This document shows, piece after piece, positions 32,266-35,780 of a DNA stretch of 64,000 nt (position 1 is the stretch's first letter; each line of letters starts with the position of its first letter). Below the pieces are notes generated by a model. That model ran no database searches. It was not told where the DNA came from and saw nothing but the letters and a program-made list of their open reading frames with translations. A program made the translations under genes and the position numbers. The stretch is taken from positions 1 through 64,000 of the forward strand of contig CANMTP010000010.1 in the NCBI GenBank assembly GCA_947500845.1, given 5' to 3'. The stretch comes from an uncultured Aquimarina sp. (GTDB taxonomy: Bacteria > Bacteroidota > Bacteroidia > Flavobacteriales > Flavobacteriaceae).

Positions 32266-33192
32266 TTATTTACGCGGCAGAAATACTTCAGCCATCATAC
32301 ATCTTGCACTTCCTCCTCCTAAGGTTTCGATCGTAGTGAGGTCACTATGAAGAATTGCACAATGTCGTTCGATCATGGTTATTTGATCTTTGGTTAAACT
32401 ATGATAAGCTGCCGATGACATTACAAGATAACGCTTATCTCCCGAACCTACAACTTGCAGCACATTACCTGCAAAACTATTTACTTGATCTTCAGAAATC
32501 GCAATAATTTCTTTATCATCATTTTTTAAATGAGTCACTAAATTTTTTCTTTCCTTTTTGTCGTCTATACAATCCAGGCATACTACAGCAAATGTTTCAC
32601 CTACTCCCATCATAACGTTGGTATGATATATCGGTAACCTTTTATCTTCGACGGTTTGATACGCAGTAAAGATTATGGGGGTATATTCAAAATCTTCACA
32701 AAACTCTATGAGCAAATCTTCATCTGCCCTGGGCGAAAGCGCGCAGTATGCCTTTCTATTTACTCTATCTAAAACCAAACTACCGGTCCCTTCAAGAAAG
32801 ACCTCTTCGTCTTCGGCATTTGTATAATCAATAATGTTTTTTATCTCAAAACCAGATGACTCTATAATATCCAGAACTTCTGGCCTACGTTCTCTTCTTC
32901 TATTCACCGCAAACATAGGATACAACGCTACATCTCCATTTTCGTGAAAGGAGACCCAATTGTTTGGGAAAATTGAATCTGGAGTATTATTATCAGGGTC
33001 ATCATCTATTACAATTACATTTATCCCTACTTTTTTTAATACTTTCACGAATTCATCAAACTCCTTTTGCGCTTTTGTATTGGCATCAACTATATTAGTA
33101 TCTTCCTGATAATAATTATTTACTGCTGTCTCTTCATTCATCCTAAATCGTACCGGACGAATCATTACAATTGTATTTGTTATCTGTTGCAT
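32266..33192 (-). CDS. ctlX: Pentein-fold hydrolase, CtlX (citrulline utilisation) type
   Basis: A 308-residue member of the arginine deiminase / amidinotransferase superfamily. Visible motifs are the opening NTIVMIRPVRFRMNEETAVNN, the acidic pair in PDSIFPNNW, the substrate loop EEVFLEGTGSLVLDR, the histidine in YHTNVMMGVG and the nucleophilic cysteine in GGGSARCMMAE (near residue 296). These fit the family annotated as citrulline-utilisation hydrolase CtlX. The substrate is inferred from family only. It is three bases from the second pentein gene upstream and seven from the Rrf2 gene downstream. Confidence 0.82.
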   Translation of the reverse strand: MQQITNTIVMIRPVRFRMNEETAVNNYYQEDTNIVDANTKAQKEFDEFVKVLKKVGINVIVIDDDPDNNTPDSIFPNNWVSFHENGDVALYPMFAVNRRRERRPEVLDIIESSGFEIKNIIDYTNAEDEEVFLEGTGSLVLDRVNRKAYCALSPRADEDLLIEFCEDFEYTPIIFTAYQTVEDKRLPIYHTNVMMGVGETFAVVCLDCIDDKKERKNLVTHLKNDDKEIIAISEDQVNSFAGNVLQVVGSGDKRYLVMSSAAYHSLTKDQITMIERHCAILHSDLTTIETLGGGSARCMMAEVFLPRK

Positions 33193-33195
33193 TAC

Positions 33196-34110
33196 TTAAT
33201 CTCTAATTAATGGCATTGTTGAACAACGTAATAAACCTTCTTGTTTAGCGATTTCAGCATAGGGCACTTCTTCTACTGTAATATTAATACTTCGAAGCCA
33301 TGTGTTTAATCTTTTAAAATTTCTTTCTGAAATAACCACATCTTCAGCAATAGAAAAAATATTCGAATTCATATGGTACATTTCATCCTTATCAATATGG
33401 AAAAGATTTTCTTTTCCGAAGAAACTGACCAAATACTCATAATCTGATAGATTCTTGAAACCTTCTTTGTGAATGATCGCCTTGTTTTTGCCTACAGGCT
33501 GAAAACAACAATCTAAATGCAAAGCATTATCTTTTGGGTCTTTCATCGATTTATTAAGATCGAATTCTCTAACTGTTTTATTTGGAAAAAGTGATCTTAT
33601 ATAGGCTACTCCTTTCATGTTAGTACGAGCCACAATACAATCAGGATAATCTTCACCTTTATATGTCCCTATAAAAATATGATCATTGTGAATTATGATA
33701 TCTCCACCTTCAAAATGAATATTATCAGAGGGAGCTTTGTACACCTTATCTGGATCTATTTCATCTATAACATGCTGGATAGCTTTAATCTCTTTTTCAC
33801 GATGAGGAAGTATATTTGATTTTATAAATTTATCCTCGATTACTAAAGCAATATCCCTGGCAAAGATCTGATTATAATCTGTGATCACTTCTGGCCGATA
33901 TACTTTTACATCATATTTTTCAAAAACTTTTGCTACAGCTTCCATTTCTGCAATCATATCCTCTTCTTTAGGATAGGTCCCTGCTTTAATATGCTCTATG
34001 GACTTTGGATCATAGGCATCTTCTATTTTAGGAACAGGACCATTACTTTTGGCTGTACCCAAAACAACTGCCCTTAACCTAGACGTCTCGTTTTGTATGT
34101 TTAAGTTCAA
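33196..34110 (-). CDS. Arginine deiminase / dimethylarginine hydrolase-like pentein
   Basis: A 304-residue pentein-fold enzyme acting on guanidino or ureido compounds. It shows FARDIALVIED, the substrate loop NIHFEGGDIII, the catalytic histidine in ALHLDCCFQPVG and the nucleophilic cysteine in GLLRCSTMPLIRD (near residue 297). Candidates are dimethylarginine dimethylaminohydrolase, arginine deiminase or an amidinotransferase; the sequence alone does not decide. It is the first gene of a three-gene minus-strand operon with ctlX and an Rrf2 regulator. Confidence 0.8.
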   Translation of the reverse strand: MNLNIQNETSRLRAVVLGTAKSNGPVPKIEDAYDPKSIEHIKAGTYPKEEDMIAEMEAVAKVFEKYDVKVYRPEVITDYNQIFARDIALVIEDKFIKSNILPHREKEIKAIQHVIDEIDPDKVYKAPSDNIHFEGGDIIIHNDHIFIGTYKGEDYPDCIVARTNMKGVAYIRSLFPNKTVREFDLNKSMKDPKDNALHLDCCFQPVGKNKAIIHKEGFKNLSDYEYLVSFFGKENLFHIDKDEMYHMNSNIFSIAEDVVISERNFKRLNTWLRSINITVEEVPYAEIAKQEGLLRCSTMPLIRD

Positions 34111-34236: not shown

Positions 34237-34417
34237 GATTTAACCCAAAGTATGCATTAGAACTTCGTAATGAGGGTTTAAAATGCAATAAAACCTGATG
34301 TTTTCTAAGATTTGGCATAGCATCGCTATGGTAAAACTTAAGAACATAACGCAGTGTTAGGTTTTGCGGCAGTTTCAAGCCGTAATAGATTTTCTAATGC
34401 ATAATTCGGGTTTAACC
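34237..34417. repeat. 181-bp full-length imperfect palindrome, MITE-like
   Basis: The outer ends are inverted repeats of about 25 bp: GATTTAACCCAAAGTATGC at the left and the complement of GGTTAAACCCGAATTATGC at the right, both continuing ATTAGAA. Inside, AAAACCT (left) faces AGGTTTT (right). Nearer the middle TTCTAAGATTTGGCATAGC faces TTCTTAAGTTTTACCATAGC. The centre is CATAGC-ATC-GCTATG (34316-34330). The whole element can fold into one long hairpin. No transposase is encoded. Confidence 0.75.
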
Positions 34418-34437: not shown

Positions 34438-34468
34438 AAAAAAAGCGTTGAATTTTTCAACGCTTTCC
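34438..34468 (-). terminator. Intrinsic terminator of gltA
   Basis: AAAGCGTTGAA and TTCAACGCTTT form an 11-bp stem with a short loop. On the minus strand it is followed by a T-tract. It lies 26 bases past the gltA stop. Confidence 0.88.
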
Positions 34469-34493
34469 TTTAATACATATCACAAATCTGATT

Positions 34494-35780
34494 TTAACGC
34501 TCAGAGATTGGTTTAAATACTCTATAATTTTCACCAATATAAATTTGCCTAGGTCTTCCTATAGGTTCTTTACGAAGACGCATCTCTCTCCATTGAGCAA
34601 TCCATCCAGGTAATCTACCCAACGCAAACATTACGGTAAACATATCTGTTGGAATCCCAAGAGCTCTATAAATTATACCAGAGTAGAAATCTACATTAGG
34701 ATACAATTTTCTTTGCACAAAATATTCATCTTTCAAGGCTACTTCTGCTAATCCTTTAGCAATGTCGAGAACAGGATCCTCTATTCCAAGGTCACCAAGT
34801 ACCTCTTCCGCAGATTTTTTAATAATCTTAGCCCTAGGATCAAAATTCTTGTATACCCTATGACCAAATCCCATTAAACGGAAAGAATCGTTTTTATCTT
34901 TTGCTTTGGCAATATATTTAGCCGTATCGCCCCCATCTTCTTTAATCGCTTCGAGCATTTCTATTACTGCCTGGTTAGCACCTCCGTGAAGTGGCCCCCA
35001 TAATGCAGAAATACCCGCAGAAAGGGATGCAAACAATCCTGCGTGCGAAGAACCTACTATTCTTACGGTAGATGTAGAACAGTTTTGCTCGTGATCGGCA
35101 TGGAGGATCAATAATTTATCGAGAGCATCATTTACAATTTTATTCGCCTCATAGGTTTGATTAGGCCTAGAAAACATCATTTTATGTAGGTTCTCAACAT
35201 ATCCAAGCGAATTGTCACCATAATCTAACGGAAGACTTTTCTTCTTTCTCATGGTCCAAGCAGCAAGTACAGGGAATTTTGCCAATATTTTTACGATCGC
35301 GCCATACATAGCTTCTTCAGAATCTACATCTACAGATCCCGGATTAAAAGCAATCAAAGCACTTGTAAGAGAAGATAGCACTCCCATTGGATGAGCACTT
35401 TTAGGAAAACCATCTAAGATTTTCTTCATATCCTCATCTACCTGAGATTCTTCTTTGATATCTTTGTCAAATTTTTCTAATTGTTCTGCGGTAGGTAATT
35501 CTCCAAAAATCAACAAGTAACAAACCTCTAAAAAATCTGCTTTATCAGCTAGTTCTTCAATAGAATATCCACGATATCTAAGAATTCCTTTTTCTCCATC
35601 TAAAAAAGTAATAGCACTCTCACAGCTTCCGGTGTTTTTATAACCAGGATCAATTGTGGTAATACCGCCTGTGACTGCTCTTAGCGTTTTAATATCAATT
35701 CCTAATTCATTTTCTGTTCCTTCTATAATGGGAAACTCATATTTATTACCGTCGATTTCTAACGTAGCTATTTTTGACAT
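34494..35780 (-). CDS. gltA: Citrate synthase
   Basis: Condenses acetyl-CoA with oxaloacetate at the entry of the TCA cycle. The 428-residue product is of the hexameric gram-negative type, with the ~35-residue N-terminal beta domain (IEGTENELGIDI). Catalytic residues sit in LHADHEQNCSTSTVR, GPLHGGANQAV and MGFGHRVYKNFDPR (His near 303). It is a single gene between two terminators. A TATATTTCG element at 35826-35834 is a possible promoter. Confidence 0.97.
   Translation of the reverse strand: MSKIATLEIDGNKYEFPIIEGTENELGIDIKTLRAVTGGITTIDPGYKNTGSCESAITFLDGEKGILRYRGYSIEELADKADFLEVCYLLIFGELPTAEQLEKFDKDIKEESQVDEDMKKILDGFPKSAHPMGVLSSLTSALIAFNPGSVDVDSEEAMYGAIVKILAKFPVLAAWTMRKKKSLPLDYGDNSLGYVENLHKMMFSRPNQTYEANKIVNDALDKLLILHADHEQNCSTSTVRIVGSSHAGLFASLSAGISALWGPLHGGANQAVIEMLEAIKEDGGDTAKYIAKAKDKNDSFRLMGFGHRVYKNFDPRAKIIKKSAEEVLGDLGIEDPVLDIAKGLAEVALKDEYFVQRKLYPNVDFYSGIIYRALGIPTDMFTVMFALGRLPGWIAQWREMRLRKEPIGRPRQIYIGENYRVFKPISER

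Follow-up and report, generated by a model that had tools for sequence, protein, structure and literature searches.

The element lying beyond the 3' end of gltA in the window (the whole stretch of DNA that was analyzed, 64,000 nucleotides of a contig from an uncultured Aquimarina sp.) is a MITE and belongs to a family found in marine Bacteroidota: it is short and non-coding, has terminal inverted repeats and target duplications, occurs in dispersed copies, has an empty site in a congener, and has an autonomous partner in congeners. We consider it probable that this MITE of about 167 bp was moved in trans by an IS1380-family transposase and that its interior is a folded module under selection. 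The initial annotation had offered a MITE or a structured RNA as alternatives; this opposition is a false one, as the element looks like both.

The stretch at 34237-34417 (181 nt) had been described as one long imperfect palindrome, and this description was borne out by its predicted fold. The stretch folds at -58.6 kcal/mol, compared with -34.3 +/- 3.6 kcal/mol in 200 dinucleotide-preserving shuffles (z -6.7), none of which was equally stable. Its inverted arms of 24 nt (34239-34262 and 34392-34415) are 88% complementary, and the centre CATAGC-ATC-GCTATG (34316-34330) consists of two 6-bp halves that are inverted repeats without mismatch, 3 bp apart. The inverted-repeat ends proposed in the initial annotation stood, and the extent was corrected: the element proper is 167 bp long and runs from CCC to GGG, and the TTTAA on either side of it is a direct target duplication located outside the inverted repeat (Table 1). 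It is also no plain palindrome, because it contains conserved internal loops and a one-sided mini-hairpin. No ORF of at least 80 aa overlaps the element, in agreement with the claimed lack of coding capacity, and since it contains no transposase ORF it is not itself an IS1380-family insertion sequence (IS). The neighbouring genes, identified by Pfam, are gltA and the pentein genes, as had been stated; the distance from the gltA 3' end to the pentein gene start is 383 bases with the element inside. Past gltA, at 34438-34470 of the window, there is a terminator-like hairpin (AAAGCGTTGAA-TTCAACGCTTT) that is conserved in kind in the congeners compared.

Table 1. Coordinates of the MITE, its parts, and the neighbouring genes in the window.
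Feature	Position	Strand	Remarks
Left target-site duplication TTTAA	34239..34243	.	flanks ...GATTTAA then CCC
MITE proper, 167 bp, CCC...GGG	34244..34410	+	+ is the sense with the best-scoring conserved fold
Left terminal inverted repeat, 19 nt compared with IS1380-type ends	34244..34262	+	
Right terminal inverted repeat CCCGAATTATGCATTAGAA (on - strand)	34392..34410	-	identical to one IS end in locus L108
Apical hairpin GCATAGCATCGCTATGG	34315..34331	+	common to IS5-type MITE of another genus
One-sided mini-hairpin, 2 bp + 3-nt loop	34349..34355	+	helix 6 of alignment A2; two-sided changes in both pairs
Right target-site duplication TTTAA	34411..34415	.	
Upstream neighbour gltA, citrate synthase	34494..35780	-	PF00285; element beyond gltA 3' end
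Downstream neighbour, arginine-deiminase-like pentein gene	33196..34110	-	PF02274, PF19420 (Pfam, with DDAH-like gene)
DDAH-like gene, after pentein gene	32266-33192		

Several copies with flanking target duplications, as proposed earlier as a check for a MITE, were found in the own genome (G000; 4.70 Mb, 59 contigs). It contains 7 complete copies including that of the window (L001-L006 and L009), all 7 with exact 5-bp direct duplications, plus fragments, and a covariance model detected 3 further degenerate copies (C2:244742, C8:92415, and C8:150417). Copies L003, L004, and L006 are mutually 96-98% alike and the remaining ones 63-94%. The terminal-inverted-repeat pattern matched 7+6 times in this genome and 0 times when read backward as a control. 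When relatives were searched, 22 of 56 genomes matched (own included), corresponding to 22 of 33 Aquimarina genomes and 0 of 23 from other genera of the order. A. agarilytica ZC1 is rich in copies, with 57 end matches. Among 47 end pairs located 140-210 bp apart, 26 had exact direct 5-mers and 1 an exact inverted one, compared with a mean of 12.2 matches and a maximum of 21 when flanks were paired at random (1000 rounds), an expectation that is high because nearly all flanks are TTTAA or TTAAA. Considering all fetched loci (148 end pairs), exact direct 5-bp duplications were present in 78, duplications with 4 of 5 bases in 19 more, and an exact inverted one in 1. Two 202-bp copies of the own genome, as well as 92-288 bp forms of an Ignavibacteriae MAG, were left out by the length filters used (155-175 bp or 158-174 bp). 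In addition, L005 and L006, copies of different MITE subfamilies, carry in the same place the same 35-bp palindromic insert (CCTGCCCGCC...GGCAGGCGGG; C3:7096-7130 and C14:100700-100734), which occurs nowhere else in the genome at 3 mismatches or fewer.

The insertion site was compared in 29 congener gltA loci, in 24 of which the pentein gene is adjacent. The gap at the gltA 3' end measures 202-223 bp in 22 of these 24 congeners and 387 bp in the window, and the two longer congener gaps (L251 and L270) contain different sequence. In congener G015 the window site is empty: the flanks, joined with a single TTTAA, align straight through. A single copy conserved in position, which the initial annotation had named as the case against a MITE, was thus not seen, given the short gaps in 22 of 24 congeners and the empty site.

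IS1380-family transposases were identified in 6 of 30 Aquimarina genomes. The IS of G015 is 1394 bp long, has ends CCTGAATTATGCGATAGGA / CCCGCATTATGCAATAGAA, and encodes an ORF of 434 aa that meets the NF033539 model (253.7 bits, cut-off 180); relatives of this transposase were found in 12 of 66 genomes, several of them as weak matches. The same ends are present on IS in G078 and G079 and on contig-end pieces in G066 and G085. TTTAA is found on both sides of the G079 IS and the G085 IS end is identical to the MITE consensus; the flanks of the G015 IS match in 4 of 5 bases, and those of the G078 IS do not match. IS and MITEs occur together in G015. A complete IS copy with a 72% identical transposase is present in MAG OLB9, and the nearest plasmid relative is an Aliarcobacter cibarius IS with a 59% identical transposase; its ends are of the same kind, and ATAAT is duplicated exactly at its flanks. 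Hence, a full-length transposon with ends matching those of the MITE, as had been predicted, does exist in other Aquimarina species, and none was found in the own genome. There, we identified no two intact ends of this type at a spacing of 1-2 kb, and the sole IS1380 transposase found (C4:2375-3637) was discarded as partner because it is 28% identical to the partner of the congeners and no such ends were seen alongside. Because the partner IS was not found in this genome, the copies there look orphaned, and the gltA-side copy is probably an inert relic with local effects at most. We also discarded the idea that the MITE interior is what an internally deleted IS left behind, since by eye the terminal ~19 nt alone agree. 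A degenerate relative of the IS1380 partner with 40% identity and 11 stops (L107, G007 C39:14035-14613) lies in the species richest in MITE ends and was perhaps the former driver there.

The exact end pattern was detected in at least 119 stretches of named genomes. The matches listed include Aquimarina, Algoriphagus, Maribacter, Galbibacter, Flavivirga, Labilibacter, Thermophagus, Saprospiraceae, Chitinophagales, an Ignavibacteriae MAG, and others; among them, many are MITEs of 163-171 bp and many others stop at contig borders, as IS copies do. The right-end pattern matched 1 of 395 genomes in a sample of the phylum, namely the own one, and the covariance model, run with lossy filters, matched 3 of 148 in a sample of the order, which indicates that the family is patchy outside the genus. 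In the Ignavibacteriae MAG IGN16 (L141, L168, L220, L236, L239, and L240) the same end sequence occurs on elements of 92-288 bp, several of which have exact 5-bp duplications. The exact end pattern was also present in contigs assigned to other phyla (L162 and L176, Nitratifractor MAG; L213, Omnitrophota MAG); the L162 and L176 matches lie close to a contig border, and the matches in these two phyla could be binning errors or transfer.

The analysis of fold conservation began with 80 elements, each 155-175 bp long and with duplications that agree in at least 4 of 5 bases. Once 2 elements with N and near-duplicates had been dropped (78 to 48), 48 elements differing by more than 10% were left, and removal of 4 poorly alignable ones (L081, L151, L163, and L167) produced an alignment of 44 elements (A2). 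In a 67-pair structure, 91.1% of the 2924 cells of these 44 elements were paired, compared with 78.9% in shuffled and 36.0-43.8% in slid controls; this version was obtained with ribosum scoring, and default RNAalifold gave 37 of the 67 pairs. Between genera, the arms have diverged in sequence and still pair with each other. Both-sided changes were present in 384 cells (107 in shuffles), two-sided changes occurred in 44 of the 67 pairs (28.6 in shuffles), covariation was 0.386 (0.168 in shuffles), and 0 of 500 shuffles reached any fold measure, although these statistics ignore relatedness. For that reason, we applied a covariation test that re-deals substitutions along a tree (our own R-scape-like procedure, 48 elements, 40 nulls). 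Six of 13,366 column pairs were significant at E <=0.05, and all 6 lie within the predicted pairs and beyond the terminal repeats, so that 6 of the 67 structure pairs are individually significant. In all or nearly all of the 44 aligned elements, the internal loops with their conserved letters and the one-sided mini-hairpin are present. Rfam returned 3 matches for the window stretch (best E 0.68), all far under the gathering score, and 1 match for 5 related copies (28.3 bits vs 144), and a known RNA family was discarded because no match came near the gathering score.

A wider set comprised 133 elements, 131 of them distinct and 93 with exact duplications; on a tree of the distinct ones we then scored 46 inner pairs. 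Pairing was kept:broken 161:64 on internal branches and 142:138 on tips (p = 2e-6 with random tie-breaking), where the counts come from Fitch parsimony on one FastTree tree, which is coarse, and tips include pre-insertion history. Slid pairs showed no internal-versus-tip difference. The simplest reading is selection on the fold during spread and decay after insertion.

An RNA strand can be told apart from DNA by comparing G-U with A-C changes. Folding of either strand predicted 37 common pairs outside the ends, and at these 108 G-U and 43 A-C were counted. As events on the tree, GU:AC was 51:13 on internal branches (66:42 for slid pairs, p = 0.012) and 83:46 on tips (72:46 for slid pairs, p = 0.60), and unpaired columns were without mutational bias (C>T 12, G>A 13). 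The + strand folds better in 129 of 131 elements (45 of 48 in an earlier set). We rejected this energy difference as a decisive sign of the + strand, because a composition control accounts for over half of it (-6.5 of -11.9 kcal/mol). Altogether, the sequences suggest that + strand RNA is the likely selected form, and they moderately support selection on RNA rather than DNA. With respect to neighbouring genes, called with a simple ORF caller for the 75 of 80 elements that were usable, no orientation bias was observed (++ 22, -- 26), and 19 elements were between convergent and 8 between divergent genes. Over-representation between convergent genes, which the source consulted in part reports for pneumococcal repeats (PMC3049150), seems to occur here too (19 vs 8).

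Weak covariance-model matches in G144, which belongs to another genus of the same family, turned out to be a different MITE of about 160 bp with ends GAACTCATCTTGACTTTTT and variants. These ends matched 69+69 times (13+17 in the backward control), and 19 of 24 end pairs had exact 3-bp duplications (17 of 22 short and 2 of 2 long elements). The two long elements are 928-929 bp, and the one examined (L425) encodes an IS5-family transposase (NF033580, 118.9 bits, cut-off 110). The apical core was present in 21 of 22 short elements; 18 distinct copies have a common apical GCAUAGCAUCGCUACGG and a 3'-sided bulge at the corresponding place, with 67 G-U and 16 A-C. Local alignment of the interiors of the two MITE families scored 54, compared with at most 39 in 300 shuffles, and in one G144 locus (L298) a chimera was found whose left half is the IS1380-type MITE and whose right half is the IS5-type MITE. 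The exact core occurred in 5 of 395 genomes of the class (own included; 1 in the backward control), and by eye all 18 listed places are such elements; 13 stretches of viral contigs contain the core word, none of them by eye in MITE-like surroundings. The common core could stem from either recombination exchange or two independent origins. The kept fold, together with the same core in an element that is moved differently, indicates that the fold itself seems to do something. Within the longer gltA gap of L270 (G084), an apparent independent insertion of an IS5-type MITE was seen by eye (GAAGTGGTTTAAACTTTTT start, CACTTC end, CTATAGCGTAGCTATGC inside).

The explanation that we favour, a MITE moved in trans with a selected interior, would work as follows. 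The IS1380-family transposase would recognise the 19-bp ends CCCGNATTATGCATTARAA and insert the element at TTWAA with a 5-bp duplication; mobilisation of this type is backed by the ends, duplications, copies, empty site, and partner elements, from which we infer the movement itself. The interior would be a folded module of its own and no IS leftover, made up of a long bulged hairpin, an apical GCATAGC-AYC-GCTAYGG stem, and the one-sided mini-hairpin. Judging from the branch statistics, this fold would be kept by selection in spreading lineages and lost after insertion, and the acting form would most likely be the + strand transcript, which may aid propagation or host tolerance. Long palindromes get corrected by copying of one arm onto the other through hairpin-templated repair or template switching, and the element could instead be an ordinary MITE in which the ends alone matter, with the fold as a side effect of descent from a palindrome and the arms copied in this way. 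Covariation alone is no proof of RNA selection and the strand polarity is modest, and in the portions of the reviews consulted stable stem-loop transcripts are general among MITEs (PMC10969869, PMC2229807). Arm copying should remove mismatches, however, yet the conserved internal loops and the one-sided mini-hairpin recur; moreover, internal branches preserve the fold better than tips do, and the apical core is common to MITEs with unrelated ends. We thus consider a by-product fold unlikely.

Less probable still, and in our opinion a poor fit, is that the core CATAGC-NNN-GCTATG is a two-fold DNA site for a host protein, like the IHF site in Correia elements, with the rest of the element as spacing. 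The core does have the symmetry of such a site, with 6-bp inverted repeats free of mismatches around a gap of 3 bp, and both MITE families have this part in common, and IHF sites in MITEs appear in the partial sources consulted (PMC2229807, PMC10969869), but two-sided changes also affect helices far from it, among the 44 of 67 pairs that have them. Furthermore, at the apical pair of columns 83/91, G-C is replaced by G-U in 7 of 44 elements and by a mismatch in 1 of 44, and the G-U change counts against a DNA site because it breaks the DNA palindrome and leaves the RNA stem intact. We give almost no credence to an RNA with a fixed place between gltA and the pentein gene, acting there as a regulator or attenuator, in spite of the position of the element between these genes and close to the terminator-like hairpin: by gap length it is absent from 22 of 24 congeners, the other two gaps hold other sequence, and many copies lie elsewhere. 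Empty gaps and copies elsewhere rule out such an RNA at gltA and refute it as the origin of the element, which may nevertheless affect expression locally. Finally, a rather doubtful reading, which we hold as tentative, is that the selfish unit is a structured RNA and not two transposon ends. A single module, made up of the apical GCATAGC-AYC-GCTAYGG hairpin and the one-sided mini-hairpin, would carry ends taken from unrelated transposons, IS1380 in Aquimarina and further Bacteroidota and IS5 in a different genus of this family, and its RNA would aid its own spread, for which it might recruit a host factor or the transposase. If true, bacteria would possess something that functions like a short interspersed element formed around a small RNA, although not necessarily with the same ancestry.

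The element resembles members of the IS1380 family (ISEcp1, IS1247), here in a Bacteroidota branch, in that its ends begin with CC and its duplications are 5 bp long, like the direct repeat given for IS1247 in the part of the report consulted (PMC3281130), and differs from them in lacking a transposase. According to a source likewise consulted in part (PMC9330008), IS1380 elements take adjacent DNA along when an incorrect right end is used, although not as a folded 167-bp unit like the one in the window. The available descriptions of ERIC, NEMIS (Correia), RUP, and YPAL repeats present similar elements, 100-200 bp long (YPAL about 168 bp), intergenic and palindromic, with a stable stem-loop RNA (PMC2229807, PMC3049150); their termini are mostly TA, whereas the window element has CCC/GGG with 5-bp duplications at TTWAA, and it is by these ends that it is set apart from them. 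As far as the portions consulted go, stable stem-loops are a common feature of bacterial MITEs, and RNases cleave the RNAs of NEMIS and ERIC (PMC10969869, PMC2229807, PMC3049150). In the consulted parts of the literature on such repeats we found neither a covariation-tested fold across genera nor a fold common to two transposase systems. Two other multicopy intergenic MITEs of Bacteroidota differ, in the partial descriptions, from this one: MITECca01 of Cardinium (PMC9769881) is about 240 bp and derived from an IS982-family element, and BrickBuilt of Porphyromonas (PMC4596501) consists of tandem repeats with a 23-nt unit. Titles and abstract starts of the open-access papers listed by literature searches yielded no IS1380-driven MITE and no Aquimarina MITE. 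The element is ordinary in kind; the surprise is a selected fold with a core that crosses transposase families.

Bacterial MITEs are usually taken as transposon ends plus filler. Here, changes in the filler compensate one another across genera, lineages that spread preserve it better than settled copies do, and its core recurs under a different transposase. If confirmed, this would be a testable case of selection on the RNA (or hairpin DNA) of a mobile element without genes, for which IS1380- and IS5-type partners with defined ends are now identified. For annotation, the finding names a repeat family, uncurated in Rfam, that adjoins many genes in Aquimarina, Algoriphagus, and their relatives.
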